A stretch of DNA of 54,434 nucleotides. It comes from an uncultured Opitutia bacterium (GTDB lineage: Bacteria > Verrucomicrobiota > Verrucomicrobiia > Opitutales > Opitutaceae). The stretch spans positions 1-54,434 of the forward strand of contig CAIJFT010000332.1 of NCBI GenBank assembly GCA_903820035.1. The letters run 5' to 3'. The position numbers and the translations under genes were made by a program. Positions 6,404 to 48,777 of the stretch are shown here, in pieces. The stretch's first letter is position 1. Every line of letters begins with the position of its first letter. The notes under the pieces are model-generated. The model saw only the letters and a list, made by a program, of their open reading frames with translations, was not told where the DNA came from and made no database searches.

Positions 6404-6511
6404 GCGCGAAAGTGAAGGACGGGTTTCCGTGCCGGGGCAATGCGGGAGCACCGCGGGGCGGCGTTTTGTCGTTGCGCGCGGGCGGGGCGCCACCGGCAAT
6501 CGCGCTGCGTC

Positions 6512-8287
6512 ATGGCCCGTTCTCTTCGCCTCCCGCCGGCCCTGTTGCCGGCAAACCAGCGGCGTGTGCCGGAGTGGTGCCGCGGGGCGGGGCTGTTTGG
6601 CGTGACGCTGCTGGCCTACCTGCCGGCGTTGTCGGCCGGTTTCATCTGGAACGACAGCGATTATGTGACGGCCCCGGCGTTGCAGTCGTTCGCGGGCTTC
6701 TGGCGCATCTGGTTCGAACTCGGCGCGACAGAGCAATATTACCCGCTCCTGCACAGCGCATTTTGGCTCGAACACCGTTGGTGGGGTGACGTGCCGTTCG
6801 GCTACCACCTCCTCAATGTGCTGCTGCACTCCGGCGCGGCGGTCGTATTGGCGGCCGTCCTACGCCGTTTGGCCGTGCCCGGGGCGTGGTTGGCGGCCTT
6901 CGGCTTTGCGCTGCACCCGGTCGCCGTGGAGTCGGTCGCGTGGGTTTCGGAGCAAAAGAACACCTTGTCGTTGTTGTTCTACCTCGGGGCCGCGTGGTTT
7001 TTCCTGCGGTTCGACGCGGAACGGCGTGCGCGGGACTACGTCGCGGCGACGCTGCTCTTCGGCTGTGCGCTGCTGACCAAGTCGGTCACCGCGACCCTGC
7101 CGGCGGCCCTGCTGGTGGTGGCCTGGTGGCGGCGCGGTCGAATCGAATGGCGCGGGGATGTGCGTCCGCTGCTCCCGTGGCTCGGGCTCGGGGCGGCGAT
7201 GGGCCTCGTGTCGGCCTGGGTGGAGCGCGTGTACATCGGCGCGCACGGGGCCGAGTTCGAACTCGATTTTCTGCAGCGCACCCTGCTCGCCGGCCGCGGA
7301 GCGTGGTTTTATGCCGGGAAACTGCTCTGGCCCGCCGAGCTCATTTTTATTTATCCGCGTTGGACGGTGGCGGCGGCGGAGGCGTGGCAATGGATTTTTC
7401 CCGCCGGCGTGGTCCTCCTCCTCGGCCTGCTCTGGCGGCTGAGGACCTGGTCGCGGGCCCCGTTGGCGGCGGCGCTTTTCTTCGGTGGTTCACTCGTGCC
7501 GACCCTCGGCTTTTTCAACGTATACGCGTTTGTATTCTCGTTTGTGGCGGACCACTGGCAGTACCTGCCGGCGATCGGGCCCGTCGCGCTGGCCGCCGCG
7601 GGGCTTATGCTCGGGCTCCAGCGAGTGGGAGCGTCGGCCGGGCTCCGGTGTGGTTTGCCGGTGGTCGTGGTCGCCGCGCTCGGGGTTTTGACGTTTCAGC
7701 AGTGCCGCGACTATGCGGATCTGCGGACGTTCTACGCTGCGACGCTGGCGCGCAATCCCGCGGCTTGGATGGCGCACCACAATCTCGGCAATCTTTTGCG
7801 CGAGGCCGGAGAGTTGCCGGCGGCGCGGGCCCATTTCGAGGCGGCGTTGCGGGTGCGGCCGGATCTGTTCAAGGCGCACAACAACCTCGGTAGCGTGTTG
7901 CGCGACCTGAAGGACCTCCCGGCGGCGCGGGCGCACTACGAGCAGGCGTTGGTGATCAAGCCCGACTACCACGAGGCGCACAATAACCTCGGCAGCCTGC
8001 TGCGCGAGCAACGCGACCTGCCGGCGGCACTCCGGCACTTGTTCACCGCAGTGCGGCTGGAGCCCACCTCGGGTGACGCGCGCAACAACCTCGGGATGGC
8101 GTTGCGGGATGCTGGGCGCCCGAGGGAGGCCCTGGTGCAGTTTGAGCGCGTCGTGCGCGAGCAGCCCGCGATGGCCGCGGCGCGCTTGAATCTTGCGCTG
8201 ACGCTTTCGCTGCTCGGGCGCATGCCGGAAGCGATGGCGCATTACCGGGAAGCCCGCCGCCTGAACCCGGCGTTGCCGGAATTGTAG
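6512..8287 (+). CDS. TMTC-like polytopic membrane protein with C-terminal TPR repeats (5 TPRs)
   Basis: 591-residue inner-membrane protein. The N-terminal ~410 residues form many hydrophobic helices and carry family signatures: an acidic FIWNDSDYV loop after helix 1, FALHPVAVESVAWVSEQKN, and FFNVYAFVFSFVADHWQYLP. Five TPR units fill residues ~414-591, with NLG-x3-L and AHYEQAL cores. The layout matches TMTC-type proteins, which in animals are protein O-mannosyltransferases; a bacterial lipid-linked sugar transferase role is inference. The start ATG at 6512 is taken because it directly precedes the first helix; upstream codons have no protein-like character. A paralogue at 19084 has the same order with 11 TPRs. 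The stop codon overlaps a palindromic repeat. Confidence 0.85.
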   Translation: MARSLRLPPALLPANQRRVPEWCRGAGLFGVTLLAYLPALSAGFIWNDSDYVTAPALQSFAGFWRIWFELGATEQYYPLLHSAFWLEHRWWGDVPFGYHLLNVLLHSGAAVVLAAVLRRLAVPGAWLAAFGFALHPVAVESVAWVSEQKNTLSLLFYLGAAWFFLRFDAERRARDYVAATLLFGCALLTKSVTATLPAALLVVAWWRRGRIEWRGDVRPLLPWLGLGAAMGLVSAWVERVYIGAHGAEFELDFLQRTLLAGRGAWFYAGKLLWPAELIFIYPRWTVAAAEAWQWIFPAGVVLLLGLLWRLRTWSRAPLAAALFFGGSLVPTLGFFNVYAFVFSFVADHWQYLPAIGPVALAAAGLMLGLQRVGASAGLRCGLPVVVVAALGVLTFQQCRDYADLRTFYAATLARNPAAWMAHHNLGNLLREAGELPAARAHFEAALRVRPDLFKAHNNLGSVLRDLKDLPAARAHYEQALVIKPDYHEAHNNLGSLLREQRDLPAALRHLFTAVRLEPTSGDARNNLGMALRDAGRPREALVQFERVVREQPAMAAARLNLALTLSLLGRMPEAMAHYREARRLNPALPEL

Positions 8288-8360
8288 CCGCGTTGGAGCG
8301 CTGCGACAGCGTGGTGCTTTCGCCTGACCACGTCTTCGCCTCCGGCTCCAACGCGGCGAC
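8284..8360 (+). repeat. Dispersed double-stem palindromic element, family 1, copy A
   Basis: Perfect 13-bp inverted repeat GCCGCGTTGGAGC (8287-8299) / GCTCCAACGCGGC (8345-8357), enclosing an internal segment like the CGTGGTC...GACCACG stem seen in copy C. The TAG stop of the upstream gene (8285-8287) lies in its first bases. Related copies: 11635-11711 (minus), 45998-46070 (plus), 48941-49018 (minus) and a divergent one at 37501-37566 (minus). Confidence 0.8.
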
Positions 8361-8538
8361 GGAATGCCGCGGTTCGTCCCGGGGAGTGGGTCGACGCGTT
8401 TGCGCGCGCCGAACGCGCCACCTGCGCTCGCGAGCGGGTTGCCTTTCGGAACTTGGAATCGCAGCCCCAAGATATGGTTCATATTACACAACCGATGCGC
8501 AGTCGGGCGGGAACGTGCGTGGCACACTCAGGGTCTCT

Positions 8539-11500
8539 ATGAACCAAACCCTCTTACGCCAAAACCCGGCCCGATGGATTGCTCGGCTCTGGGCGGGCCT
8601 TGCGCTCCTCGTCCTCTCCGCCTCGCTCCTCCGCGCCCAGAGTACGGGAACGATTCAGGGTCGTGTCTTTAATCCGACGCTCCAGCAATACGTCCGCAAC
8701 GCCGAGGTGCGGCTGGAGGGTTCCGCGCAGATGGTGTCGACCGAGAGCGACGGTACGTTCCAATTTGCCCACGTTCCCGCGGGGCCCGCCACGATTTCGG
8801 TTTCCTATACCGGCTACGCCACGGCCACCGAAAAGCTCACCGTCGCCGCGGGGCAGACCGCCACCCGCGAGATCAATCTGACCAACTCGCTCGCGCCGGC
8901 GGCCAAGTTGGGCGAAATCGTCCGCCTCGAGGCGTTCACCGTCTCCACCGAACGCGAGGGCAACGCGAAGGCGATCATGGAGCAGAAGAAAAACATGAAC
9001 GTCACCACCTCGGTGGCGTCGGACATTTTCGGCGACGTCACGGACGGGAACATCGGCGAGTTCCTGAAGTTCCTGCCCGGTGTGGATGTCGATTACGTTG
9101 AGTCCGAAACCCGCGGTCCGCGCCTCGGCGGCATGGACGCACAGTACACGGCGGTGTCGTTCGACGGCGTTCGCCTCGCCAGTGCGGATGCCAACCGCAC
9201 GGGTGACCTCGGCCGCGCGACGAGCTTCGAGGCGTTTTCGATCAGTAGCATCGAGTCCATCGAGATCCACCGCACGACCAGTCCCGACATGGACGCGGAT
9301 GCCCCGGCGGGTACGATCAACATGAAGACGCGCCGGGCCTTCGAACGCAAAGGCCGCCGCATGGGCTACAATGCCAGCCTGAATATGAACTCCGATGAAT
9401 TTCACTTCAAGCGGACCTACGGCCCGGGTGGCGAGAAGACCTACAAGGCGCGGCCCAATTACAGTTTCGAATACTCGGAGTCGTTCCTGAATCAGCGGCT
9501 TGGCTTCGTCGCCAGCATCAACCACGTCGACTCCTACACCGAGCAATACCGGCACAATATCACGTACAACAAGTCGCCGACGGCCGCCGATCCGCGCGAG
9601 ATGGTTGCGACCGTCCTGAACTTCAAGGACGGCAATAAGAACATCGCGAAGGACACCTTCACGCTGACGACCGACTACCGGGTTTCCTCGCGCCTCGTCC
9701 TCTCAAACGCCCTGATTTATAACTACGCGCTCGGCCAGTTCTACAACCGCGAGGTCACGTTCAACTCGGCGCTGAACAACGCCAACGTGAACCTGGGCCG
9801 CGGCACGGTGCTCGGCGACGGCCTGACCACGGTCCGCACCAACGCCACCGTCGACGCCTCCCGCAACTCCGCGATGGGCGGCGGCAGCGCCAGCAAGCGC
9901 ACGCATACCGTCACCGTGGCCCCGCGTTTCGAATACAAGGTCGACAGCTGGGTCATTGACGGCGGAGCGGCGTATTCCCGCTCGTTTAACAATTACGAGG
10001 CGCTCGAGCAGGGCCACACCGCCAATGACCCGGTGAACAACATTACCAGCGGCTTTGTCGCCACGCGTCCCAGCATCACCTCGCACGAGTGGACCATCCA
10101 GCAGACGACCGGCGCGGATTGGTTTAACCTGGCGAACCGCACGAACCCCCGCATGGGCAACGAGGGGCGCTATGCCCGCACCGAGATCTACGCCGGCGAT
10201 GTCAACGGGCGCTGGGTCACGCCGCTGCAGCTCTTCCCGACGTCGGTTAAGTTTGGCGGCAAGTGGGCGGAGGAGGGCCGCAAGAACGGCAATGAGACGC
10301 CGTACTATAACTGGCAGTACATCGGACCCGGCGGTGGGGCCACCGGTAGTTGGGCGGAATTTCCCAACCGCAACGTCTGGGACACCGGCACGACGAACAT
10401 CCTGACCACGAAGAACTCCCTCGGGCAGGTGCTCTCCATCCCGCGTCCGGACTCGAACAAGATCGCGGACCTCTTCAACGCGCACCCCGAGCTGTTTCAG
10501 AATGTCGCCAACGCCGACGCCTACTACAACGCGATCATCGGCAACCGGCGCAACGTGGTCCAGACCGTGACGGCCGGCTACGGCATGGCGGATATCAAAG
10601 TGACGCCGAAACTCGCCGTCCGGGCCGGCCTGCGCTGGGAGCAGACTGAGAACGATTCCCGCGACTTCGACCCGAAGAAGCCGTCTGAAGTCACGGCGGC
10701 CGGCTATCCGGTCAGCACGGCGGGACGCCCCACCACGATTCCCGGTTATGCGTACCAGTACCTGACCAACCCGCTCGTCTCGCACGTCGTCACCTACGAC
10801 AATCTCTTCCCGATGGTCAGCGCGAAGTACAGTTTCACCCGGAACCTCCAGGTGCACGCCGGGTACAATCAGGCGATTTCTCGCCCGCCGGTCGACAGCC
10901 TCGCCGGCGCGTGGGTGATCAACGAGACGACCCACGTTGTCACGAGCCCGAATCCGAATCTGCTGCCTGAGTATTCGAAGAATTTCTCCGCTCGCGCCGC
11001 GTACTATTTCGAACCGGCCGGCCAGTTTTCCGTGACGGTGTCACAGAATACGATCCGCAATCTGCGTGAAACCCGCCGCGGCACTGCCGAGGAATTCGGC
11101 ATGGCGAACGATCCCGATTACGGCAGCTATGAGTTTCAGTCTCCCTTCAACGTCGCCAGCCCGCGCCGCTTCCGCAGCATGGAGTGGGCGTACAACCAGA
11201 CACTCCCGTTTACCCACGAGGCGTTGCGCGGTATTTCGGTGCAGACGGCCTACACGCGTTCGTATGCGGACTCCCGCCGCGGTGGCATGTTGCCGCACCG
11301 CTTCACCTCCAGTCTCGGGTATAGTTACAAGCGGTTTCGCGCCCGGGCCGGTGTGGTCTGGCGCGACAATACCCCGGACGGCAGCGCGACGACCGATTAC
11401 GGCCGCTTCCGCCGGCACGATACGAAACTGGATCTCGGGGGTGAGTTCCGGCTGACGAAGCACGCCTCCCTATTCTTCCAAGGTCGTAATATCTTCAACG

Positions 11501-11616
11501 GCGGTCAGACATGGATGGAAGGCCCGACCAATGCGATTGAAGGGCAGGGGGCGGCCGTCCGGGTGTATGAAAATTATGGAGCGAACTGGAACTTCGGTGT
11601 GAAAGGCACGTTTTAG
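8539..11616 (+). CDS. TonB-dependent outer-membrane receptor 1 of tandem array
   Basis: Outer-membrane active transporter of 1,025 residues. Signal peptide (WAGLALLVLSASLLRAQ), then a carboxypeptidase-regulatory-like beta domain starting GTIQGRVFNP and ending near residue 115. A TonB-box-like segment LEAFTVSTEREG follows, then the plug (DVTDGNIGEFLKFLPGV, RGPRLGGMDAQYTAVSFDG, PAGTINMKTRRAFERKG). A long beta-barrel ends in the aromatic FGVKGTF. The start ATG at 8539 begins the signal peptide; the frame is open further upstream but there it runs through a repeat element. Two paralogues follow directly (12288 and 15751). The transported substrate is unknown. Family confidence is very high from the N-terminal domain, plug and terminal Phe. 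Confidence 0.95.
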   Translation: MNQTLLRQNPARWIARLWAGLALLVLSASLLRAQSTGTIQGRVFNPTLQQYVRNAEVRLEGSAQMVSTESDGTFQFAHVPAGPATISVSYTGYATATEKLTVAAGQTATREINLTNSLAPAAKLGEIVRLEAFTVSTEREGNAKAIMEQKKNMNVTTSVASDIFGDVTDGNIGEFLKFLPGVDVDYVESETRGPRLGGMDAQYTAVSFDGVRLASADANRTGDLGRATSFEAFSISSIESIEIHRTTSPDMDADAPAGTINMKTRRAFERKGRRMGYNASLNMNSDEFHFKRTYGPGGEKTYKARPNYSFEYSESFLNQRLGFVASINHVDSYTEQYRHNITYNKSPTAADPREMVATVLNFKDGNKNIAKDTFTLTTDYRVSSRLVLSNALIYNYALGQFYNREVTFNSALNNANVNLGRGTVLGDGLTTVRTNATVDASRNSAMGGGSASKRTHTVTVAPRFEYKVDSWVIDGGAAYSRSFNNYEALEQGHTANDPVNNITSGFVATRPSITSHEWTIQQTTGADWFNLANRTNPRMGNEGRYARTEIYAGDVNGRWVTPLQLFPTSVKFGGKWAEEGRKNGNETPYYNWQYIGPGGGATGSWAEFPNRNVWDTGTTNILTTKNSLGQVLSIPRPDSNKIADLFNAHPELFQNVANADAYYNAIIGNRRNVVQTVTAGYGMADIKVTPKLAVRAGLRWEQTENDSRDFDPKKPSEVTAAGYPVSTAGRPTTIPGYAYQYLTNPLVSHVVTYDNLFPMVSAKYSFTRNLQVHAGYNQAISRPPVDSLAGAWVINETTHVVTSPNPNLLPEYSKNFSARAAYYFEPAGQFSVTVSQNTIRNLRETRRGTAEEFGMANDPDYGSYEFQSPFNVASPRRFRSMEWAYNQTLPFTHEALRGISVQTAYTRSYADSRRGGMLPHRFTSSLGYSYKRFRARAGVVWRDNTPDGSATTDYGRFRRHDTKLDLGGEFRLTKHASLFFQGRNIFNGGQTWMEGPTNAIEGQGAAVRVYENYGANWNFGVKGTF

Positions 11617-11634
11617 AGCGGTTCCACGATTCCT

Positions 11635-11711
11635 GTCGCTGCGTTTGAGCCAGAGGCGAAAACGTGTTCGCGCCTTAGTACCACGTTGTGGCTGCGCTCC
11701 ACCGCGGCTAC
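11635..11711 (-). repeat. Family 1 palindromic element, copy B
   Basis: On the minus strand it reads GTAGCCGCGGTGGAGCGCAG, then a CACAACGTGGT core, ACACGTTTTCGCCTCTGGC and AAACGCAGCGAC, aligning along its length with copies A, C and D. It lies 18 bp after the stop of receptor 1, in the opposite orientation to copy A. Confidence 0.8.
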
Positions 11712-11930
11712 AACGTTTCTGCAAACGCCGGCAGTCCTTTGCTTTTTTAGTCTGCGGGGGTTGGCCTCATGCCGTTGAGCGTTCGTCCTGAGGGCTGAGA
11801 GCAAAACCAACGGGTGGCTGCGCGTTCGAAGGTCCGTGTAACCCGAGTTTCCGCCGCGGATTGGTTACTCGACGCTCTGCACCTTGCTTCAAACTGCAGG
11901 ATCTCGGCTTAGCTGGAAATACCCGTGGCC

Positions 11931-12003
11931 AAAATCCGATGTCCCTCATCGGTTTTGGGCGCTGTGGTCGACCGTATGAAATCGCCCCATGGGGACATCT
12001 GGC
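11931..12003. repeat. Two GCCCGATG/GGACATC-type palindromes
   Basis: 11931-11956 pairs CCGATG with CATCGG, flanked by A4 and T4 runs, and could fold as a hairpin. 11984-12003 reads GCCCCATGGGGACATCTGGC. Similar motifs occur at 33174-33216 and at the window end (54415-54434). Confidence 0.45.
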
Positions 12004-12287
12004 TCCGCCTGACTTGAATCTTTTCGGTTTCGCGTAGGCTCGGATTCGCACTGGCGCCGTTCTGTAGGCGTGCCGCGCCACGATGGTGCCCTGGGCGATT
12101 AGTAACGCTGATTTCGCAGCAACCTCGCCTGAACTTCTTTGCTTGCGGATGCCGACAAATTTAATGGGATTCCGACCGCCGCGGCCAGTTTTCGGCCCGG
12201 TTCACACCCAAGCAACCCCGCAAAGTACCCTAGGCTGGAGCGATGCTGCGTCGCGCCGGCTTGGATCAACCCTCGGCCTGACAAATT

Positions 12288-15200
12288 ATGGAAGTCGCTC
12301 CCAAACCCCGACTGTTCTCGCTCCGTCATCTCGCTATCAGCGTATGCTGCTGGCTCGGCCTCGTGGCTTTCGCCCAGGCCCAATCTGGAGGCACCGGCTC
12401 GATTCAAGGCCGCGTGTTCAACCCCGTTGCCGGTGAGTATGTCCGCAACGCCGAGGTCAAACTCGACGGCACTCCGCGGGTCACCTACACGGAAAACGAC
12501 GGTGCGTTCTCCTTCACCGGAGTCCCCGCCGGAACCTCGTCGATTTCAGTGACGTTCTCCGGCTACAAGACGGCGACCGAGACGTTTACCGTTACCGCCG
12601 GCCAGACCGCGACGCGCGAAATTAATCTCCAAAGCTCCGTCGCGCCATCGGCGACGAAGGACGGCGTGGTGAAGCTCGACGCGTTCACGGTGTCATCCGC
12701 CCGCGAAGGCAACTCGAAGGCGATCATGGCCCAGCGCCGTGATATGAACATCATCACCTCGGTTTCCTCCGACATCTTTGGCGACGTGACCGACGGCAAC
12801 GTGGGCGAGTTCCTCAAGTATCTTCCTGGCGTCGACCTCGACTACGTCGAATCCGAGCCCCGCGGCCCGCGCCTCGGCGGCATGGACGGACAATACGTCG
12901 GCGTGGCCTTCGACGGTATCCGTACGGCCAGCGCCGACGCCAATCGCGGCGGTGGTTCCTCCTCGCGCGCGACGTCGTTCGAGGGGTTCTCGATCACGTC
13001 CGTCGATTCGGTTGAGATCAACCGTACGGCCAGCCCGGAAAACGACGCCGACTCGCCCGCCGGTGTGGTCAATATGAAGTCGAAGCGCGCCTTTGACCGT
13101 AAAGGTCGCGTGTTTACGTACAACTATTCGGCTAATTTCAACGGCGAGGAGTTTACGCTGAACAAGACGGTTGGTATTCAGGACGGCCGGGAAAATGCCA
13201 TGTCGTACAAATGGATGCCCAATTGGCAGGCCGCGTACGCGGAGTCGTTTTTTAACCAGAGGTTCGGCATTTTGCTCTCGGCGTCCCACTCCCAGTCCTT
13301 CACCGAGCAGCTTTCGGAAACGGTCAACTACTCCAAACCCGGTACGCTGACGGCGGCGGATTCGCGTCCGATGGTCGTCCGCCAGATCACCTTTGGTGAC
13401 GGACCGAAGTACATTATCAAGGACGCCCTGCTCCTCACCGCCGACTGGCGCGCCACCAAGAGCCTCGTGCTGTCGCTCAATATGAGCTACTCGTACTTTG
13501 AGGGCCACTTTTGGAACCGCAGCTTCGACTTCGTCGGCGCGAATGACAACGCCAACGTCAACAACGGCCGTCCTTCGGTCGGTGGCGACGGTGTGAACTC
13601 GGTGTCCTTCAACCGGGAAAACTTGGCCAATGTTTCGACGGTCAACAACGGTGGTGGCTCGTCCTCCAAGCTCTCCTACAACCGCCAGTTTGCTCCGCGC
13701 TTCGAATACAAGGCCGGCAACTGGGTGGTCGATGGTTCGCTCGCGATGTCTTTTGCGAAAAACAACTACGAGTCGCTTGAGCGGGGCTTCTCCAACTCGG
13801 AAGACGGCCGCATTCCCTCCGGTTTCATTGCCACCCGTCCGAACGCGCAATCCTGGGAGTGGACGATCAAGCAGACCTCCGGTCCCGACTGGTACGATCT
13901 GAAGAACTGGACGTTTGCCGATTCCCGCGCCGGCGGTACGCGCGTCAACAATGACAATCGCACGTGGGTGACGGAGAAGTGGACCGGGGCGCTCAACGCG
14001 GCTTGGAACGTGCCCTACTTGCAGCGTTTCCCGACCCGCATGAAGTTCGGTGCGAAGTGGGATGAAGAAACCCGCAACAACCGGACCGACTCCGACCTCG
14101 ACATCTGGTCCTACATCGGGCCGGGCGGCAACACCGTCGGCGTGAATCCGACGACGGGTGCGATCATCAATACGTCCTATGGCAACTGGGCCAATGTCGG
14201 ACCGCAGTTCGTTTCGCCGTTCCTGTTCGACATGGGCACGACGAATTCGATGACGGTCTACAACATCAATGGCGTGAAGGGCATGCCCCCGCGCGTCAGC
14301 CGCACCGAAGTCGCCAATCTCTTCCACTCGCGTCCCGATCTGTTCGTCAACACGGCGACTCCGGAAAATTTCTACACGGACATGTACGTCAACGCGCGCC
14401 ACTTCCGGCAGACCATGAATGCCGGTTACTGGCAGGCCGACACGCGCCTGGCCTCGCGCCTGATGATCCGCTTTGGTGTCCGCGCCGAGCAGACGAAGAA
14501 CGCCTTCCGTGAGTTTGATCCGCTGACCCGCGCGCAACTGCTGGCCAAGGGCGTTGCGCTCAACGCGCCCGCCACCAACGCGGGGCGACCGCTGACCGTG
14601 GCTGGCATGCGGAGCATGTTCGAAACCAACCCGCAGATTACCCGTAAGTCAGATTACACCGACTGGTTTCCCTCGATGGTGGTGAAGTACAACTTCACGC
14701 CGAACCTCGAGTGGCAGGCGGGTGTCAACAAGGGTATCTCCCGCCCCGGCATCGACAGCCTGACCGGTCTCTGGGTGCAAAACGACAACGCCAATCCGCC
14801 CACGGTGACGGCGCCGAATGCCGACCTGCAGCCTGAGCACCACAAGGTTTACCAGACCCGCCTCGCTTACTACTGGCAGGGGACCTCGCCCGGTCAGGTC
14901 TCGATTGCCTATATTCAGGACGAAGCGACGAACTTCATCGTTTCCCGGACCTACTCCGCCGAAGAGTTTGGGGTGACTGATCCCGACTTCTCAAACTACA
15001 ACTTCATTTCGACGACCAACACGGTCGCGTTGCAGCGGTACAAAAACTTCGACTTTAACTACAACCAGACCCTCGGTTTCCTCCCGAGTGAGTATCTGCG
15101 CGGCTTGAATGTCGGCGCCACCTATAGCCGCTCTTACGCCAACCAGCGTCGCAACAACCTCGCGCCGCACCGCGCGACGGCTCGTCTCGGTTACAACTAC

Positions 15201-15479
15201 CGCCGCTTCAGCGGTTCCATCGGCGCGATCTGGATCGACGACCGCCCGATCGACGGCGTCTACGGCCGCATTTGGGGCGCGATGACCAAGCTCGATATCT
15301 CGGCCAACTGGCGCCTGAACCGGTGGGCGACACTCTACGTCCAAGCCCGTAATCCGACGAACCAAAAAGACATCCGCTACGAGTCCCCGAACGGGGTTGA
15401 GGAAGGCAAGCAGAAGTACCTGCGCTTCCAGGAAACCTACGGCGACAACTGGGTCTTCGGTGTGAAGGGCCAGTTCTAA
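12288..15479 (+). CDS. TonB-dependent outer-membrane receptor 2 of tandem array
   Basis: 1,063 residues, same architecture as receptors 1 and 3. Signal peptide (CCWLGLVAFAQAQ), GSIQGRVFNPVAGEYVRNAE regulatory-like domain, LDAFTVSSAREG TonB-box-like segment, plug with SDIFGDVTDGNVGEFLKYLP and RGPRLGGMDGQYVGVAFDGI, and a barrel ending WVFGVKGQF. The ATG at 12288 is the first start before the signal peptide. The plug is nearly identical in wording to that of receptor 3, while the barrels differ more, as expected after duplication with ligand divergence. A strong intrinsic terminator follows at 15506. Its 671-bp upstream spacer suggests its own promoter. Confidence 0.95.
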   Translation: MEVAPKPRLFSLRHLAISVCCWLGLVAFAQAQSGGTGSIQGRVFNPVAGEYVRNAEVKLDGTPRVTYTENDGAFSFTGVPAGTSSISVTFSGYKTATETFTVTAGQTATREINLQSSVAPSATKDGVVKLDAFTVSSAREGNSKAIMAQRRDMNIITSVSSDIFGDVTDGNVGEFLKYLPGVDLDYVESEPRGPRLGGMDGQYVGVAFDGIRTASADANRGGGSSSRATSFEGFSITSVDSVEINRTASPENDADSPAGVVNMKSKRAFDRKGRVFTYNYSANFNGEEFTLNKTVGIQDGRENAMSYKWMPNWQAAYAESFFNQRFGILLSASHSQSFTEQLSETVNYSKPGTLTAADSRPMVVRQITFGDGPKYIIKDALLLTADWRATKSLVLSLNMSYSYFEGHFWNRSFDFVGANDNANVNNGRPSVGGDGVNSVSFNRENLANVSTVNNGGGSSSKLSYNRQFAPRFEYKAGNWVVDGSLAMSFAKNNYESLERGFSNSEDGRIPSGFIATRPNAQSWEWTIKQTSGPDWYDLKNWTFADSRAGGTRVNNDNRTWVTEKWTGALNAAWNVPYLQRFPTRMKFGAKWDEETRNNRTDSDLDIWSYIGPGGNTVGVNPTTGAIINTSYGNWANVGPQFVSPFLFDMGTTNSMTVYNINGVKGMPPRVSRTEVANLFHSRPDLFVNTATPENFYTDMYVNARHFRQTMNAGYWQADTRLASRLMIRFGVRAEQTKNAFREFDPLTRAQLLAKGVALNAPATNAGRPLTVAGMRSMFETNPQITRKSDYTDWFPSMVVKYNFTPNLEWQAGVNKGISRPGIDSLTGLWVQNDNANPPTVTAPNADLQPEHHKVYQTRLAYYWQGTSPGQVSIAYIQDEATNFIVSRTYSAEEFGVTDPDFSNYNFISTTNTVALQRYKNFDFNYNQTLGFLPSEYLRGLNVGATYSRSYANQRRNNLAPHRATARLGYNYRRFSGSIGAIWIDDRPIDGVYGRIWGAMTKLDISANWRLNRWATLYVQARNPTNQKDIRYESPNGVEEGKQKYLRFQETYGDNWVFGVKGQF

Positions 15480-33216: not shown

Positions 33217-33263
33217 CACCTTTGGCTTGTCCGGTGCCCCCCTTCCTGAGCCAATCGCCGCGC

Positions 33264-36200
33264 ATGTTACCCTCGTTGCGCCGCCTCTCCGCGTGTGTCG
33301 TCGTCCTGCTCTGTTGCACCGCGCTCTTTCGTCCCTGTGCCGCCGCTGAACAGGCCGCAGCGCGGAAGCAGACCGGCGCCGGGAAGAAAGCCCGCGCCGG
33401 CGACCAGTGGTGGCGCGAAATCGACACCGGGCCGTTCCTCGCCGACACGATTCTTGCCGCTCCCGCGGGCTCCGTGGCCGCGCTGAAAGGGTTGGCGATC
33501 AAACTCGGCGACGCGCGCGACGTGTCTGTGGTGTTTGATACCGAGTTGCTCGCGTGGCGGGCGGGCTTTGGCGGCGCGCTGGTCCTCGATGGCACGCCGT
33601 GGAGCGGGACCCACGGCGGCAACTCCCACTACCCGGAGGGGGAGACGAACTTGTTTTTCCAGAATCCGGCCGGTCTCGGGGTGGCGCTCAACGGCGACTG
33701 GTCCGATCCACGCGAACAAAAAAATGGTCCGCTCCCGCACGCGCTCGGGCGCTACCGCGGACTCTATCGTCACGGCCAGCAGACGGTGCTGCATTACACG
33801 CTCGGCGGGGTCGAGGTCCACGAACTGCCCGCGCTGGAGCAGGTGGGCGGGGTCCGCGCGATCACTCGGACCGTCGCGGTCGCGGCCGCGGCCCCCGCCG
33901 AACTCGAGTGGGCCGTGACGGCGAAACCGGATCGGCGCGTGCAGGCGGCCGCGCGCGTCTACCTCGTCGGGGCACCCGCCGGAGTGACCCTGGTGACCGC
34001 GGCGGACGGCCGCCAGACTGTGGTGGTGGCGAAGGGCACGCCGCCCGCGCGCTTCAAGATTGTTTACGCGGAAAAGGCCCTCGATCCCGCGGCGGTGCCG
34101 CCGCCGGCCGACCTGGCGCCGCTGTTGCGTGGCGGGCCGGCCTTGTTTCCGCAGACCTTTGCCTTGAAGGGTCAGCTGGATCCCGACGCGGCGAAGAAGA
34201 CCTATGCCGTCGACGTGATCCCGTTGCCCGCGGACAACCCGTGGAAATCGCCGCCGCGTTTCGGCGGGTTTGATTTTTTCCCGGATGGCAAGCGCCTCGC
34301 GGCCTCGACCTGGAACGGCGACGTATGGATCGCCGAGGGTATCGACGGCGATCTCTCGAAGGTGACCTGGCGGCGTTTTGCGAGCGGCCTGTTTCAAACG
34401 CTCGGGCTCAAGATCGTCGACGGCGTGATCTACACGCAGGGTCGCGACCAGATCACTCGGCTCACCGATCTCCACGGCGACGGCGAGGCCGACCGCTACG
34501 AGTGCTTCAACAACGACGTGCTCATCACGGCCGGATTCCACGAGTTCAGCTTCGATCTGGAGACGGACCGCGAGGGGAATTTCTACTTCAGCAAGGCGAT
34601 GCCGGTGAACCAGGGCGGCCGCGGCTTCATGGCGTGGACGCCACACAACGGCGCCGTGCTCAAGGTCAGCAAGGACGGTTCGAAACTCGAGCGTGTAGCT
34701 TGGGGCCTGCGGGCGCCGGGCGGCGTCGGCGTGAGTCCGGACGGAGTGGTGACGACGGGCGAGAACGAGGGTACCTGGGTGCCAGTCTGCAAGATAACCT
34801 GGACGCGACCCGGCACTACGACCTTCAACGGCGTTGTTCCGAGCAAGTGGGAAAACAGGAATGTCTTCGCGGGGGTTTTGCCCGGCGCGCCGACGAGCTA
34901 CGACCTGCCGCTGTGCTGGATTCCGTACGCGGTCGACAACTCCAGCGGCAGCCAGACCTGGGTGCCGGAAAACACCGCGTGGGACCCGCGGCACGCGGGT
35001 GAGATGCTGCATCTTTCATATGGCAAGTCCTCGCTCTTCCGCGTGCTGCGCGAAGAAGTGAACGGCGTCGTGCAGGGCGGCGTGTACCGCCTGCCGATCG
35101 ATGTCAGCGCCGCGGTCATGCGCGCGCGGTTTCACCCGCAGAACGGTCAGCTCTACGTCGTCGGTTTTCGGGGCTGGCAGACGAACGGTCGTGATGCGCT
35201 GCAACGCATCCGCTACACGGGCGTGACCACGCCGGTGCCGGTGGAACTGCACGCGCACGAGAACGGATTATTGGTGCGGTTTTCCGCGCCGCTTGACGCC
35301 AAGACCGCCGGCGATCCGGCGCGTTACTCCATCAGCAAGTGGAATTATGTCTGGGGCCCGCAGTACGGCTCGGGCCGGTTCTCGATCGACCAGCGCGACG
35401 TCAAGGCCGAGGAGCGTGCGGTCACCGAGCCGTCAAAGGGTGCGCACAACGTGATCGACACCGTGCCGGTCGCCGCGGCGATGCTCCTCGAGGACGGGCG
35501 TTCGGTTTTCCTCTACATCCCGAAGATGACGCCAGCGATGCAGATGGAGTTGAAGCTCGATTTGCGCGACCCCAAGGGGGCGCTCGTGCGCGAGACGATT
35601 TATCACACGGTGCACGCCTTCGCGCCGGAATTTAAAACCGCGGGCGTGCGTTGGGCGGATGTGAAGGTAGTACCGTCGGCGCCGGCGGGTGAACCGGGGC
35701 TGGCGCTGAGTTTCAACGCCGAGATTACCGACACGCTACGCGTCGACCAACTTGCGTTGACGGTTCCGGCGGGCACGTCGCCCTCGGTGTTCATCACCCC
35801 GCGCAACGGCGCGTTTGGCGCGGCCTTCCAAGGTTCGCTGCTCGTGCCGGACCGCGACGACTACACGTTTTCCCTCGAAGGCGAGGGCGAGGTCTCGCTT
35901 GTGCTCGATGGCAAGACGATCGCGAGCGGCAAGCTGCCGCTCACGGCGCCGGCCGCGGTCACGCTGGCAAAGGGGCCGCACGCGATTTTTTGCAGCTACC
36001 GGAGCAAGGCCAACGGCGAAGGCCGGATTCGCCTGATGTGGAGCACCCCGGGGTTTAAAACCGAGCCCGTGCCGGCGGCGGCGTTCCGGCATTTGCCCGG
36101 CGCCGAGATGGCGGCGTGGAGCCAGGCGCGGGCGGGGCGCGAGGTGTTTGCGGCCGCGCACTGCATCAAATGCCATGTTCCGCGCGGCGGTTTGTCCACC

Positions 36201-37484
36201 GAGCTCGCGCCGGAAGTCCGGCAGACGGCGCCGGATCTCACGGCCGCGGGCGCTCGTTTCGACCGTGCCTGGTTGGAGCGTTGGGTGGCGGCGCCACAGG
36301 GGCACTGTCCGTCGGTGGCGACCGGCCGCGCCGCGGAGGTGGCGGCGTATTTGGCTAACCAACCCGCGGCCGGTCCGCTGGAGGAACGGGTGCCGACCGA
36401 CGCCGCGAGTGTGGCCGCGGGCGCGGCGTTGGCCGAGACCTTGCATTTGGGATTCTGGCTTGAGCCTCTAGCCAAAGAGCGGAGGCACACGGACGCGGGG
36501 CTCATCGGTTTTTTGCGGCAACCGGCGGCCCATCATCCGGACACGACCTTCCCTGATCTGCGCCTGAGTGCCGACGAGGCGCGGCAGTTGGCGGCGTTGG
36601 TGCGTTCGCGCCAGCCGGCGGCGGTGCCGGCTTCGTCGCGCGGCGATGCGGCCGCGGGTGGAGCCATTGTGTCGGCGAAGTGTGCGGCGTGCCATGAGGT
36701 GGCGGCGGCCAAGGCGATTGCCCCGGCGTTTGAGGAGGTTGTGCGCAGCGATTGGGCGGTGAAGGGGTGTGTGGCGCCGACGCGCGGCCTTGCTCCCGAC
36801 TTGCATTTGACGCCGGCGGACGTCGCGGCGCTGCTCGCTTTTCGCAACGCCGACCGCGATGTCGGCATCCAGTCGCTGCGGCGTTTCGCGCCGGCGGAAT
36901 ATGTCGCGGGCCAGATGAAGGCGTTGCAGTGCGGTCAGTGCCACGCGGCGGGCGGGGAGAACAAGTTGCCGGACCTGACCTTAGCGGGGGAAAAGTTTCA
37001 GCAAGCGTGGCTCGAGAAATTGTTTGCGGGCCAGGCGGGGCGTCTCCGGCCATGGCAGGAGTCGCGGATGCCGGCGTTCGCGAGTCGGGCCGCGGCACTC
37101 GCGGCCGGGTTGGCGGCGAAGCACGGGGTGCCATTGTCGACGCCGGCTCCGGCGAAACGCCCGGATTGGATCGAGATCGGCGGCAAGGTGGCGGGGGAGG
37201 CGGGATACTCGTGTGTGGCTTGCCACGATTCTGGCATGCGGGCGGCGTTGCAGGTGTTCGAAGGGCAGGGGCCCAACCTCCAGCTCGCGGGGCAGCGGCT
37301 CCGGTATGACTATTACCAACGCTGGGTGCACTGGCCGCAGCGCATCGCGCCGACCACCATTATGCCCCGTTACACAAAGGATCGCGAAAAGGCCCTGCTC
37401 GCCGCGCCGTTTGACGGGTCCGCCGCGCAGCAATTTGAGGCGGTCTGGCACTGGATGGGCAGTCTCGAACCGGGCCGGCCCTAG
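33264..37484 (+). CDS. Giant exported beta-propeller / PA14 / multi-haem cytochrome c protein
   Basis: 1,406 residues with a signal peptide (RRLSACVVVLLCCTALFRPCAAA); start ATG at 33264. An N-terminal domain (to about residue 330) resembles one seen in planctomycete and verrucomicrobial cytochromes (possibly DUF6797, from memory). A dehydrogenase-like beta-propeller follows (about 330-650; FFPDGKRLAASTWNGDVWIAEG, VISPDG-like blades). A PA14-like beta domain comes next (about 855-950; LLVPDRDDYTFSLEGEGE). Four CxxCH haem sites lie in the C-terminal third: CIKCH (~967), CAACH (~1140), CGQCH (~1223) and CVACH (~1317). It is probably a periplasmic or outer-membrane sugar-oxidising or electron-transfer protein. 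The reaction is unknown. It is likely transcribed alone. Confidence 0.85.
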   Translation: MLPSLRRLSACVVVLLCCTALFRPCAAAEQAAARKQTGAGKKARAGDQWWREIDTGPFLADTILAAPAGSVAALKGLAIKLGDARDVSVVFDTELLAWRAGFGGALVLDGTPWSGTHGGNSHYPEGETNLFFQNPAGLGVALNGDWSDPREQKNGPLPHALGRYRGLYRHGQQTVLHYTLGGVEVHELPALEQVGGVRAITRTVAVAAAAPAELEWAVTAKPDRRVQAAARVYLVGAPAGVTLVTAADGRQTVVVAKGTPPARFKIVYAEKALDPAAVPPPADLAPLLRGGPALFPQTFALKGQLDPDAAKKTYAVDVIPLPADNPWKSPPRFGGFDFFPDGKRLAASTWNGDVWIAEGIDGDLSKVTWRRFASGLFQTLGLKIVDGVIYTQGRDQITRLTDLHGDGEADRYECFNNDVLITAGFHEFSFDLETDREGNFYFSKAMPVNQGGRGFMAWTPHNGAVLKVSKDGSKLERVAWGLRAPGGVGVSPDGVVTTGENEGTWVPVCKITWTRPGTTTFNGVVPSKWENRNVFAGVLPGAPTSYDLPLCWIPYAVDNSSGSQTWVPENTAWDPRHAGEMLHLSYGKSSLFRVLREEVNGVVQGGVYRLPIDVSAAVMRARFHPQNGQLYVVGFRGWQTNGRDALQRIRYTGVTTPVPVELHAHENGLLVRFSAPLDAKTAGDPARYSISKWNYVWGPQYGSGRFSIDQRDVKAEERAVTEPSKGAHNVIDTVPVAAAMLLEDGRSVFLYIPKMTPAMQMELKLDLRDPKGALVRETIYHTVHAFAPEFKTAGVRWADVKVVPSAPAGEPGLALSFNAEITDTLRVDQLALTVPAGTSPSVFITPRNGAFGAAFQGSLLVPDRDDYTFSLEGEGEVSLVLDGKTIASGKLPLTAPAAVTLAKGPHAIFCSYRSKANGEGRIRLMWSTPGFKTEPVPAAAFRHLPGAEMAAWSQARAGREVFAAAHCIKCHVPRGGLSTELAPEVRQTAPDLTAAGARFDRAWLERWVAAPQGHCPSVATGRAAEVAAYLANQPAAGPLEERVPTDAASVAAGAALAETLHLGFWLEPLAKERRHTDAGLIGFLRQPAAHHPDTTFPDLRLSADEARQLAALVRSRQPAAVPASSRGDAAAGGAIVSAKCAACHEVAAAKAIAPAFEEVVRSDWAVKGCVAPTRGLAPDLHLTPADVAALLAFRNADRDVGIQSLRRFAPAEYVAGQMKALQCGQCHAAGGENKLPDLTLAGEKFQQAWLEKLFAGQAGRLRPWQESRMPAFASRAAALAAGLAAKHGVPLSTPAPAKRPDWIEIGGKVAGEAGYSCVACHDSGMRAALQVFEGQGPNLQLAGQRLRYDYYQRWVHWPQRIAPTTIMPRYTKDREKALLAAPFDGSAAQQFEAVWHWMGSLEPGRP

Positions 37485-37500
37485 CATTCTCGGCGCTTTT

Positions 37501-37566
37501 GTCGTCGCGCTTGGGCTGGAACCGAAAGCGTGGTGGTTCCCTCTGACGCCACCTTGGCGCTACCCT
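37501..37566 (-). repeat. Family 1 palindromic element, divergent copy E
   Basis: On the minus strand the 3' half reads ACCACGCTTTCGGTTCCAGC then CCAAGCGCGACGAC, aligning with ACCACGTTTTCGCCTCCGGC and TCAAACGCGGCGAC of the other copies. The 5' half is more diverged. It lies about 16 bp downstream of the giant cytochrome gene. Confidence 0.5.
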
Positions 37567-37756
37567 CGGCGCGGCGACCGTAACTAGGTCCGCCAAGACG
37601 GGCCGGAACCGGCATCCCAATTCAGCTTTGCAAAGATTCCGCTGCCACCCCTTTTGATTCTTGCAGGTCGCAACGGTCGATTCTTGGCTTCGCACCTCTG
37701 ATTTTCTGCGGCAGGGCCCGCGGAATACTCGCAACCCTAGCTCAACCCTACACCCT

Positions 37757-40700
37757 GTGAACTACCGCTCCCTCAACGGTGCCACGCGTCTGCTGCAAGC
37801 GGCGCTTTTGGCATTGTCCTTCGCCGGCGCTTGTCCGCCTGTCGCTCTTGCCGCCGATTCCGCTGCCGCTTCCGCCACGGGGGTCGTCTCCGGCATTGTG
37901 ACCAACAAGACCACCGGCAACGGTCTGATTGGCGCCCGCGTCGAGATTCCGGCCCTCAAGCTCAGTACGCTGGTCGACAACACCGGCCGCTATCTGCTCA
38001 ACGTGCCGGTCGGCACGCACGAGCTCGTTGTGACCTACACCGGCCTCGACACCGATAGCAGTGCCGTGGTGGTCAGCGCCGGGCAGCCGGCGATCAAGAA
38101 TTTCTCAATGAGCAGCCAAGTGCTGATGCTCGATGCCTTCAAGGTCGCGAGTGAAAAGGCCGGTCAGGCCTCGGCGCTCACGCAGCAGCGTAATGCGGAC
38201 AATCTGAAGAGCGTCGCCTCGATGGACGCGCTGGCCGACTTGCCGAACATGAACGCCACCGAGCTCGCCATTCGCCTCCCGGGGGTGACGTTCGCCGACC
38301 CCGGCGACGAGGTCGTGGAACAGATCAGCGTGCGCGGCATGGGCGCCGGCACGACCTCGATCACCATCGACGGCGGCGGCATGTCGTCGTTCAGTGCGCA
38401 AGGCCGCACGACGCGCATGACGGCCTTCACCGGTGCCATGTTCGAGTCGCTCGAGCTCACCAAGGGCCAGACGCCCGATCGCCCCGTCGATTCTCTCGGC
38501 GGCAGCGTAAATTTCAAAACCCGCTCGCCGCTCTCCATGAGCGAAAAGCGCCGCATGGTCTTTAACACCCAGGTGCGCATGGCACCGTGGTTCTCCGAGC
38601 AGGTGCCGATCCGCGAGGCCCGCCGCACCCATGGTCTGGCTAATTTCCAGTACACCGAGAAATTCGCCATCTTCGGCGCCGAGCGCGAGAATCTCGCCGT
38701 CTCAGTCAACGCCTTCTACAGCGAAAACGCCTTCGGGTACTTCCAGACGAACCGCGATTTCCAGCAGACCAACAACCAGCCGGCCTATGTCTGGGACTAC
38801 CGCACGCGGGATAATTTCAATATCCGGAAGCAGCGCAGCATTAGCAGCAAGTGGGACTACCGCCTGACGCAGAACGATCTGCTCAAGGTAAACATCGTGC
38901 TCAACAACGCCCCCGAGCCAATGCGCCGCCAGTACAATCAGCGCGCCTTTGCCGGTAGCCAGACCACGGTGCCGAACACGACCAACACCGGCGTGGTCCC
39001 GGGCTTCACCGATCGCATCACGACCATTCGCGCCGTGCCGACCGCATCCAACGCCACCTCCGGCACCACGGCCCCTGCGCTCATCGATCAAGGCACGTCC
39101 AATATCAACCGCGACCAGCGGCTGCGCCACTTCGACTTTGCCGGCGAGCACAAGGTGCTCGGCTTCCTCGAGGCCGACTGGGCCGCGCTCTGGAGCCGTA
39201 CCCGCTACCGCACGCTCGGCAACGAGGCGTCGCTCACTAACCGTATCGGCAATGTTCCGTTTGTCGGGCCGAACGGTCTCGTCGGCTCCGCGACCAACAA
39301 CGTCGTCGGACCGAACGGTGAAACCGGCGTGGGCTGGATCCTCGACCGCACGCAGTCCGACCTCTACCCGCGCTTCATCCAGAACGGCGGTCTTGATTTC
39401 ACCAACCCGAAAAACTGGCGCCCCTCGGTCAACGGTCTCAACACCGCGGCGGGCAACCTCGACGTCGACCTCATCCGCGAAGCGCGCGGCAACGTAAAGA
39501 TCAAGCTGCCGTTCCTCGAGGAGTTCCCGAGCTTCTTCAAAGCCGGTTACTCGATCCGCGACCACAACGTCGAGCTCTACCGCCAGAACCGCCGCTGGAG
39601 CTACATCGGTCGCGACGCGCTGCCGAATGATCCCTCGATCCTGACTTGGGACAAGGTGAAGACCGGTCGCAACCTGCCGTATTGGGACGGCGCCGCGGTC
39701 TTCAACCACGGTAAGCTGGTCGATCCGACGCTCTGGCAGGAAGACATGTACTACTATTACACGAACCGCCTGAACGCGAGCGTCCGGACCCACGAAATCA
39801 TCACCGGCTACTACGGCATGATGAACGGCAAGATCGGCCGCTTTGGTTACCTCGGCGGCGTCCGCCACGAGAACACCGAGACGATCGGCTACCTCAACGT
39901 CCGCTCGCGCACCCTCACGTCGGCCGCGCAGCAGACGGCCGATCCGTTGGGTTCCGCGATCAAGGACTATAACAACCCGACCCGGAATGACGGCGAATAC
40001 GCCCAGAACTTCCCCAGCATGCATACGTGGTACGACGTCACGGCGAACCTTCGCCTGCGTGCCGCGTGGAGCACGGGTATGTCGCGGCCTTCGCTCGCCA
40101 ACGCCGTCACCGCGCTTGGCATCAATGAGACCGCCCAGACCGTCACGTTCGGCAATCCCGCCCTGCGTCCGACCAAGTCCAAAAACTGGGACTTTGCCGC
40201 CGAGTACAGCTTCGGCACCGGGAGCTACGCGAAAGTCGGCTGGTTCCACAAGCGGATCGACGACTATATCCGCGGTGGTCAGCCGGTCGGCATCGTCGGC
40301 ATCGGCGCCGACAACGGTTTCAACGGCCTTTACGAAGGCTACGAAATCCTCGCGAACTCCAACGCGGGTTCGGCTTTCACGCAGGGTTGGGAGCTCGAGT
40401 ACTTCCAGCAGTTCCGCTTCCTGCCCGGCCTGCTGCGGACCCTTCGCCTCTCTGCCAACTTCACGCAGATCATGGCGCATGGCGACTACGGCACCCCGGG
40501 CGTTTATCTGACGACGGAAAAGGTGAATGGCTTCATTCCCTTCACCTCCAACGTGAATCTCAGCTGGGATTATAAAAAGTTCGGCGCCTCGGTCAGCTGG
40601 AATTATACCGACGGTAGCATCCGCGGCGGCGCCAATATCGCGGCTCCGTCCCGCGACCGTTACATGCTCCCGCGTGACCTCTTCAACCTGAACCTGCGCT

Positions 40701-40849
40701 ACCAGCTTCCGCGCAATGTCACGGTCAATTTCGGCGTGCAGAATATCTTCAATGAGCCGCAGCGCTACTACCGTGGCGTGCCCGATCAAATGGAGACCTT
40801 CCTGATCCAAGGCACGACGCTCACGCTGAGCGTTGAAGGCCGGTTCTGA
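37757..40849 (+). CDS. TonB-dependent outer-membrane receptor 4 (distinct subfamily)
   Basis: About 1,030 residues if the GTG at 37757 is used; this gives an N-terminus leading directly into the signal peptide (ALLALSFAGACPPVALA). An in-frame TTG at 37661 would add 32 residues without signal character. Domains: carboxypeptidase-regulatory-like (VVSGIVTNKTTGNGLIGARV), TonB-box-like LDAFKVASEKAGQ, plug (LADLPNMNATELAIRLPGV, ISVRGMGAGTTSITIDG, GGSVNFKTRSP) and a barrel ending LSVEGRF. The plug differs from the three tandem receptors, so it belongs to another subfamily and probably takes another substrate. A strong terminator at 40869 ends the transcript. The neighbouring amidohydrolase and namZ genes begin after it. 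Confidence 0.92.
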   Translation: MNYRSLNGATRLLQAALLALSFAGACPPVALAADSAAASATGVVSGIVTNKTTGNGLIGARVEIPALKLSTLVDNTGRYLLNVPVGTHELVVTYTGLDTDSSAVVVSAGQPAIKNFSMSSQVLMLDAFKVASEKAGQASALTQQRNADNLKSVASMDALADLPNMNATELAIRLPGVTFADPGDEVVEQISVRGMGAGTTSITIDGGGMSSFSAQGRTTRMTAFTGAMFESLELTKGQTPDRPVDSLGGSVNFKTRSPLSMSEKRRMVFNTQVRMAPWFSEQVPIREARRTHGLANFQYTEKFAIFGAERENLAVSVNAFYSENAFGYFQTNRDFQQTNNQPAYVWDYRTRDNFNIRKQRSISSKWDYRLTQNDLLKVNIVLNNAPEPMRRQYNQRAFAGSQTTVPNTTNTGVVPGFTDRITTIRAVPTASNATSGTTAPALIDQGTSNINRDQRLRHFDFAGEHKVLGFLEADWAALWSRTRYRTLGNEASLTNRIGNVPFVGPNGLVGSATNNVVGPNGETGVGWILDRTQSDLYPRFIQNGGLDFTNPKNWRPSVNGLNTAAGNLDVDLIREARGNVKIKLPFLEEFPSFFKAGYSIRDHNVELYRQNRRWSYIGRDALPNDPSILTWDKVKTGRNLPYWDGAAVFNHGKLVDPTLWQEDMYYYYTNRLNASVRTHEIITGYYGMMNGKIGRFGYLGGVRHENTETIGYLNVRSRTLTSAAQQTADPLGSAIKDYNNPTRNDGEYAQNFPSMHTWYDVTANLRLRAAWSTGMSRPSLANAVTALGINETAQTVTFGNPALRPTKSKNWDFAAEYSFGTGSYAKVGWFHKRIDDYIRGGQPVGIVGIGADNGFNGLYEGYEILANSNAGSAFTQGWELEYFQQFRFLPGLLRTLRLSANFTQIMAHGDYGTPGVYLTTEKVNGFIPFTSNVNLSWDYKKFGASVSWNYTDGSIRGGANIAAPSRDRYMLPRDLFNLNLRYQLPRNVTVNFGVQNIFNEPQRYYRGVPDQMETFLIQGTTLTLSVEGRF

Positions 40850-40868
40850 GCTTAATCTAATTGCTCGT

Positions 40869-40909
40869 CGGGTGGCTGGGGCGTAAGCCTCCGCCACCCG
40901 ATTTTTTTT
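40869..40909 (+). terminator. Rho-independent terminator after receptor 4
   Basis: Stem CGGGTGGC (40869-40876) / GCCACCCG (40893-40900), with further partial pairing inside the loop, followed by A and eight T residues. It lies 20 bp after the receptor stop and 15 bp before the next gene's ATG. Confidence 0.9.
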
Positions 40910-40923
40910 GTCCCCGTTCCGCC

Positions 40924-43580: not shown

Positions 43581-43766
43581 ACCCTTGGCCTTCCGGAGGG
43601 CGCTTCCGGCAGGGCTGGCCTTTCCTTCGGTTGTGGCACCGTGCGGGCGCTGAACGGCGGACCCATTTTTAGCGCGGTTGACCCCGGCGCTTGTTGTCCC
43701 GAAGGTCGCGACTATTGCGCCGGTACCCCGCCGGATCTGTTAACGACCGCTTCCCCTCGTTTGCCC

Positions 43767-45953: not shown

Positions 45954-45997
45954 GTTGGCGGACCCTGACTGGATTCGCTAGCGTTTCCAGAATCAGG

Positions 45998-46070
45998 GTG
46001 GCCGCTTTGGAGCGCAGCGACCACGTGGTCCTCCGACGTGACCACGTTTTCGCCTCCGGCTCAAACGCGG
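45998..46070 (+). repeat. Family 1 palindromic element, copy C
   Basis: GTGGCCGCTTTGGAGCGCAG, then ACGTGGTC (46023-46030) and its complement GACCACGT, then TTTCGCCTCCGGCTCAAACG. The inner 8-bp stem is perfect, the outer stem imperfect. It lies between the esterase and the sulfatase. Confidence 0.8.
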
Positions 46071-46180
46071 GTACAAAGAGTTCGGCACCGCTCGAGTCGT
46101 CTTGCGGCGGGATGCTTGGCCGGCGGCGGCCGCGCCCCGGCATCGACAATCCGGTGTGCCCGGCAATGCTGCGTCGGATC

Positions 46181-47776: not shown

Positions 47777-47832
47777 AGGCCACGCGTCGGTCTTCCCCTT
47801 TTTTGCCGCTCAACCTTCAACTGCAGCTCCCC

Positions 47833-48774: not shown

Positions 48775-48777
48775 GGT

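Follow-up and report, generated by a model that had tools for sequence, protein, structure and literature searches.

IS630-family transposition into TA dinucleotides, with duplication of the TA, is established, and ISY100 and IS630 are described as belonging to a transposase family that inserts in this way (PMC2170065). They are autonomous elements, whereas the repeat examined here is without a transposase. Among shorter repeats, RUP of pneumococcus, treated together with IS630-Spn1, is described as a 107-bp non-coding element with IS630-like ends and a TA target, for which movement in trans has been proposed, while ERIC and Correia/NEMIS are described as repeats of roughly 100–155 bp with terminal inverted repeats and 5'-TA-3' ends (PMC2229807). 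Our repeat resembles RUP in these respects, as compared by description and not by sequence, but differs in that its matching insertion sequence (IS) was found in relatives only and in that its interior is a two-hairpin GTAG core; the likeness to ERIC and Correia/NEMIS is one of kind only. GTAG REPs are a further parallel: the GTAG-15 dimers of Anabaena variabilis are described as lying inside TATAGGA...TCCTATA palindromes, with no such arms found there without REPs and, in the parts of that account compared here, no IS630 explanation (PMC3733652). What they have in common with our repeat is the pair of GTAG-tagged hairpins within palindromic arms ending in TA; the difference, as far as that account goes, is that there the REPs are inserted in palindromes, whereas here the arms match IS630-type repeats including the GTAGCC (PMC3733652). 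BOX of pneumococcus, which supplies the stop codon of neighbouring genes (36 CDSs; PMC3049150), is of another structure. Our literature searches did not find REPIN, RAYT and IS630 together, nor Opitutaceae with insertion sequence and IS630, nor Opitutus with repetitive extragenic palindromic.

The window analysed here is the whole 54,434-nt stretch of contig CAIJFT010000332.1 from an uncultured Opitutia bacterium. A preliminary description had recognised in it five copies of a palindromic element of about 75 bp. Four of these, at 8284–8360 (+), 11635–11711 (-), 45998–46074 (+) and 48941–49017 (-), are real and reach 98–124 bits with our profile R1, among whose 28 training sequences they are counted. 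The fifth, at 37501–37566 (-), is a probable but eroded copy that is absent from R1 training and scores 22 bits (E 3.7e-4, by a rough calibration). The length had been underestimated. In an alignment of 97 copies with 60-bp flanks (the kept part of 176 rows, the remaining 79, at 60 bits or less, being the opposite strand of the same places), conservation reaches 22 bp past the 77-bp core on either side and then falls to background. The conserved span opens at C-TA-nnGCG and closes at CGC-nC-TA-G, with sharp edges Y-TA and TA-R, and the 77-bp core is therefore the middle of an element of ~121 bp, which is too short to encode a transposase. The outer arms are imperfect inverted copies of each other. 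The interior consists of two inverted hairpins, each opening with GTAG (GTAGCCGCGTT..AACGTGG and GTAGCCGCGTTT..AAACGTGG); the core alignment (A5) takes in every third of the 97 own cores (33 in all) plus three from congeners, with L068, L069 and L073 omitted for their long interiors. A terminal TA, a dinucleotide with a frequency of 1.6% in the window, is present at the 3' end of 43 of the 97 copies and at the 5' end of 21 (both ends in 15, one end only in 34, neither in 48), far more often than chance would give. Where the TA is kept, R follows in 40 of 43 cases and Y precedes in 19 of 21.

Copy A (8266–8383, +) has an intact core at 8284–8360, with the perfect 13-bp outer stem already reported for it (GCCGCGTTGGAGC / GCTCCAACGCGGC), and outer arms that are unrecognisable (arm scores -8 and -2 bits). 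The TAG at 8285–8287, within its GTAG, is the stop of an upstream TPR/mannosyltransferase-like frame (6440–8287). Copy B (11612–11732, -; core 11635–11711) carries the window's best preserved IS630-type terminal inverted repeat (11614–11641, +; TAGAGCGGTTCCACGATTCCTGTCGCTG), and this right terminal repeat opens with the TAG (11614–11616) that ends a TonB-receptor gene (8293–11616). Copy C (45977–46097, +) is nearly full length, its core at 45998–46074 lying between arms at 45977–45997 and 46075–46097. Copy D (48918–49038, -; core 48941–49017) has diverged arms and lies in the spacer between a DHDPS-family gene (49091–50002, -) and a frame at 47773–48846 (-). The probable copy E spans 37478–37597 (-), and near its edge a TAG (37482–37484) is the stop of a frame at 33222–37484. 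Both orientations thus occur, as had been claimed; the accompanying statement that all positions are intergenic holds only loosely, the TAGs at 8285–8287 and 11614–11616 being stop codons of neighbouring frames. As to gene content, 8293–15479 and 37661–47659 contain several TonB receptors with carboxypeptidase-regulatory domains, an acetyl-xylan/glucuronyl-esterase-like frame and a sulfatase, and look like a polysaccharide-use region.

Further copies in the genome, whose absence would have spoken against a mobile family, are plentiful. R1 was built from 28 of 34 copies (alignment A2; L013, L021, L023, L025, L027 and copy E omitted), and in the own 6.05-Mb, 469-contig assembly all 150 scored candidates lie at E 7.7e-4 or better, that is, at least 150 places over many contigs, at least one of these rows (C281, +) being a reverse-strand echo of another. 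A blastn search with copy C returned at least 41 rows at E 2.4e-17 or better, query included, among the best 40 of 175 candidates scored. Across 57 genomes R1 is positive in seven, namely the own genome and six of 26 congeners, with none of the 30 genomes of other genera; under stricter filters a match is absent from the other 20 congeners. At E 0.001 the core-only model R2 detects 11 of 27 genus genomes, of which four (G006, G012, G019 and G020) have one marginal match each. Exact core patterns gave no matches in named-genome and viral scans, outside which the own genome possibly lies.

A 19-base arm pattern occurs at 31 places in the own genome (control 0), 25 of them inside R1 matches. Among the six places outside, L198, L200 and L202 are shortened but keep both arms, L199, L201 and L203 have one arm with little or no core, and none is a perfect solo arm palindrome. 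The shortened elements (L271 is another) retain only about one hairpin, as if the interior had been lost between the internal repeats CCGCGTT and CCACGTTTT. Elsewhere the element forms part of a longer, composite repeat that also contains tracts resembling CCGAAAGGGTCAGGGCGAAAC and CCGGCGCCGG (L031, G000:C98:4200–5580; also L032–L034), and C98 holds two element copies 170 bp apart.

The identity of the arms emerged from comparison with the IS complement of related genomes. The arms with the first core bases (TAGAGC...TGTAGCCG) align without gaps with the 28-bp terminal repeats of ~1.0-kb IS630 elements in congeners, whose ends read roughly TAGAGCGNTTYAARTAAWRCTRTAGCCG (L204, L206, L207, L208, L209). 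The majority terminal repeat of our 97 copies is TAGAGCGGTTCCAAGATTCCTGTAGCCG at the 3' end and TACCGCGTTTCCAGAAATAGCGTAGCCG at the 5' end. Ten IS ends from five congeners agree with this consensus, ungapped, at 17–22 of 28 positions for the 3' arm and 16–21 of 28 for the 5' arm; the corresponding control values, from seven ends of other IS630 types of the genus, are 7–14 and 9–10 of 28. With the TA excluded, the observed end match was reached by 0 (3' arm) and 5 (5' arm) per 200,000 shuffles, and a hand-chosen consensus, whose 5' end is non-majority at the third and fourth base, gave a nearly identical result. A profile made from 25 IS ends only, all from other genomes and containing no copy of the repeat, was compared with random window sites; 54 of the 97 5' flanks and 66 of the 97 3' flanks exceeded the 99th percentile of these. 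The end match and this IS-only profile together indicate that the GTAGCC opening the core doubles as the inner box of an IS630 terminal repeat.

Four of the congener IS630 elements measure 1005–1017 bp. The three 201-aa frames tested exceed the NCBIfam cut-off for IS630 family transposase, and the only upstream frame tested, that of L208, matches HTH_Tnp_IS630. In L204, L206, L208 and L209 two overlapping frames share the transposase between them, close to a YKK codon run, an arrangement that suggests programmed frameshifting. A wider search returned 80 IS630-related loci, the closest being mostly from Verrucomicrobiota. Of 31 measured, 29 have a terminal repeat of 16/28 or better and 17 have both ends of the TAGAGC...RTAGCY type, more distant loci differing inside; at L337, L339, L342 and L349 the script chose a TA inside the repeat as the end. 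The pattern TAGAGCNNTTNNANNANNNNTGTAGCC (one mismatch) occurs in 10 of 27 genus genomes (reversed control 0), and G002, G004, G005 and G011 contain short elements with the same ends and unrelated interiors. Judged from sequence, such sharing of ends between an IS630 and short elements is what an IS630 family with a number of MITEs would show, in line with the proposal for RUP and IS630-Spn1. At L258–L266 (G004, G005) the same IS630 ends enclose another GTAG hairpin (like GTAGGGGCGTGCCTCGTGCACGCCC), several as an inverted pair. A matching transposase was not found in the own draft genome, where PF13358 detects one IS630 fragment (C128), at a contig end and with a different end sequence. Since the assembly is in 469 contigs, a repeated IS could be absent from it.

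We consider it very likely that the repeat is a non-autonomous MITE of the IS630 (Tc1/mariner) type. Observed in its support are the common sharp ends, terminal repeats that match, with equal spacing, those of IS630 elements in congeners, Y-TA-R where ends are preserved, a high copy number, a patchy distribution and a short length. An IS630-family transposase would bind both ~28-bp terminal inverted repeats in trans; the element would then be cut out and joined into a TA within Y-TA-R (often CTAG), with duplication of the TA. The trans-mobilisation and the TA duplication are both steps that we infer. Insertion in the orientation that places the TAG end at a stop-codon TA would give the gene its stop back, and the two-hairpin GTAG interior would travel as cargo.

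The relation to stop codons can be seen in the frames that run into the element. Of 92 copies, 23 have a frame open for at least 100 codons whose stop falls exactly on the 3' terminal TA; the mean for other offsets (-90 to +60) is 0.42, and the next stop peaks are the element's own fixed inner stops (10 at d=32 on the 3' side and 11 at d=22 on the 5' side). After a coding-likeness filter derived from seven window genes, 17 of 97 copies, about one in six, keep a gene-like stop at the 3' terminal TA; the same side has 26 over 120 outside positions and 4 inside, and the inner stops d=22 and d=32 account for 1 each. On the 5' side the filter leaves no stop at the terminal TA, 41 outside and 5 inside, the last including two at GTAG. 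Of 158 directed Y-TA-R sites in the window, those of its own copies included, 8 are such stops. For copy B, whose terminal TAG at 11614–11616 is the TonB-receptor stop, the homologous genes in G023 and G013 terminate at the same codon position. The 3' end is mostly TAG and the 5' end mostly TAY, so that a single orientation restores a stop codon. As the right end reads TAG, insertion at the TA of a TAG or TAA stop returns TAG, which probably explains the 17 frames ending there. The excess may partly reflect survivorship, a TA within a stop codon being kept by selection; insertion preference and better survival at stop codons cannot be told apart in these data. To our knowledge, no IS630 ends are known for BOX. 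GTAG REPs, too, often supply a TAG stop (PMC3733652); new in comparison, as far as the descriptions of BOX and GTAG REPs compared here extend, are the exact stop at an IS630-type end and its one-sidedness.

We looked for the corresponding sites in relatives. An exact empty site for copies A, B or D was not found in the relatives' loci. At the copy A site G018 and G023 retain both neighbours without a core-model match, the spacers being too diverged for the join to be read. For copy D, nine relatives have loci holding the DHDPS gene, some of them cut by contig ends, and in none of these was the next gene found. At the copy B site G013 gave no match and the gene there ends in TGA, while G023 has an eroded copy after its TonB homologue (L257, G023:C25, 294–367; E 3e-5). 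Its offset and orientation are those of copy B, and the insertion may therefore predate the split of the two species.

Several observations count against an IS630 MITE: a matching transposase was not found in the own genome, an exact empty site was not found in relatives, 48 of 97 copies have TA at neither end, gene-like stops are absent from the 5' terminal TA, and over the 97 copies the core is conserved more than the arms. The usual MITE has the opposite pattern, its arms being conserved above its interior. With an arm profile built from the same 97 copies (leave-one-out and IS-ends-only versions were also run), at least one arm exceeds the 99th percentile in 90 of 97 copies, both in 76 and none in 7 (3 at the 95th percentile); with the IS-only profile the numbers are 78, 42 and 19 (11 at the 95th percentile). 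In the congeners G003, G016 and G024 the five clear copies scored (L066, L073, L069, L074 and L067) are armless with either profile and have GTAGCC...GGCTAC-like borders. Among nine copies of G023, the own profile finds both arms in L068, one in L072, L075 and L087 and none in five, and the IS-only profile both in L068 and one in L072. In G025 the own profile finds both arms in L065 and one in L071, neither exceeding the 99th percentile with the IS-only profile. Single hairpins of the core occur in G018 (L070) and G016 (L081).

IS630 alone does not explain the arm-less copies, which in sequence look like head-to-head dimers of GTAG REPs. These cores, together with the Anabaena dimers in TA-ended palindromes, allow for a REP dimer caught in an IS630-type MITE. 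We tentatively entertain, as a possible but not the probable history, a two-engine hybrid in which a GTAG-REP dimer, present and spreading by itself within the genus, became enclosed in IS630 terminal repeats and was then spread by an IS630 transposase independently of RAYT. The inner box GTAGCC of the IS630 repeat would here coincide with the REP tag, the MITEs of G004 and G005 may be another REP pair similarly enclosed, and the same history may explain the palindrome-enclosed GTAG-15 dimers of Anabaena variabilis.

The preliminary description had suggested a REP/MITE-like element and proposed a search for a RAYT elsewhere in the genome. On a REP account the repeat would be a GTAG-superfamily doublet (REPIN/BIME) that a RAYT tyrosine transposase spreads, and its arms would be secondary; we judge this improbable. 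The core does consist of two inverted GTAG-tagged hairpins, single hairpins (G018, G016) and arm-less doublets (G003, G016, G024) do exist, three gene-like stops lie at GTAG, and Y1 genes are common in the genus (PF01797 search, 57 genomes). GTAG REPs are also described as abundant in Opitutus terrae, often supplying the TAG stop (PMC3733652). Three observations weigh on the other side. First, gene-like stops lie at the outer 3' TA in 17 copies against 3 at GTAG. Second, a border at GTAG is found for the arm-less copies but not for most of the own copies, given the arms detected with both profiles. Lastly, neither hairpin, allowing up to nine mismatches, lies beside any of 59 scanned Y1/RAYT loci (56 distinct). 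These are part of the loci present in the own genome, six element-bearing congeners and ten other congeners; coverage was 3/3 in the own genome, 13/23 in G003, 8/16 in G016, 6/11 in G018, 1/2 in G023, 9/12 in G024 and 6/12 in G025. The own genome has three Y1 (IS200/RAYT-like) genes or fragments, one below the family cut-off. Their flanks contain other hairpins, such as the GTAGGYCCGGCC doublet at L120, and R1 at full sensitivity gives weak matches beside them (best 12.5 bits, E 0.044). Of the earlier characterisation, the mobilised, MITE-like part is supported and can be tied to a specific transposon family; a REP with a RAYT is not supported by the 59 loci scanned. At L120 itself (G000:C141, about 1480–1880) a Y1/RAYT-like fragment is flanked by a GTAGGTCCGGCCGGTGGCCGGGC...GCCCGGCCACCGGCCGGGCCTAC doublet, which probably represents a second hairpin family of this genome, one linked to a RAYT.

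The element had also been suggested to be RNA- or DNA-structured; that it is a structured RNA kept by selection, with a regulatory or mRNA-stabilising role, seems to us very improbable. Copy A folds at -47.5 kcal/mol (z -5.3), but for the remaining four copies in the window z lies between -1.9 and +0.4. ERIC, which is of comparable size, is described as altering mRNA stability (PMC2229807); the copies of our repeat occur in both orientations and Rfam gave no match at gathering score. Compensatory change, proposed earlier as the check on pairing, was mostly wanting. The helix CCACGTTT/AAACGCGG has 13 double changes against 6.0 in shuffles, a number reached by 0 of 300, but in the other nine of ten helices the observed number of double changes is equalled or exceeded in 38 to 189 of 300 shuffles. 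Three of these nine, CTA/TAG (8/300 shuffles), GCG/CGC (16/300) and CCGCGTT/AACGTGG (25/300), show a slight rise in the proportion of paired cells. The RNAalifold structures of R1 (14 pairs) and R2 (3 pairs) served the homology search only. The scarcity of compensatory change speaks against a role as RNA but does not bear on a mobile palindrome, and the folding and double-change results fit DNA palindromes decaying after insertion better than RNA under selection. With the repeat beside none of the 59 Y1/RAYT loci scanned and little compensatory change, both the RAYT and the RNA readings are thus unsupported. Chance or an assembly artefact, for which one could cite a GC-rich draft genome with 4.43% contamination, has practically no likelihood given four strong copies on one 54-kb contig, at least 150 scored places over many contigs, the absence of R1 from 20 of 26 congeners under the stricter filters and reversed-pattern controls of 0.

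Returning to the IS630-type MITE, we regard the repeat as a new family of this kind in the Opitutaceae with an unusual two-hairpin GTAG core; its mechanism would be ordinary, and its composite build and stop-codon docking are of some interest. A likely engine can now be named for a high-copy repeat of Verrucomicrobiota, and MITEs and GTAG REPs, repeat classes usually kept apart, are joined in one element. A TAG-reading end inserted at the TA of a stop codon suggests a simple route by which a mobile element can occupy genes harmlessly, and for any genome that carries this transposon family one can count the copies so docked.
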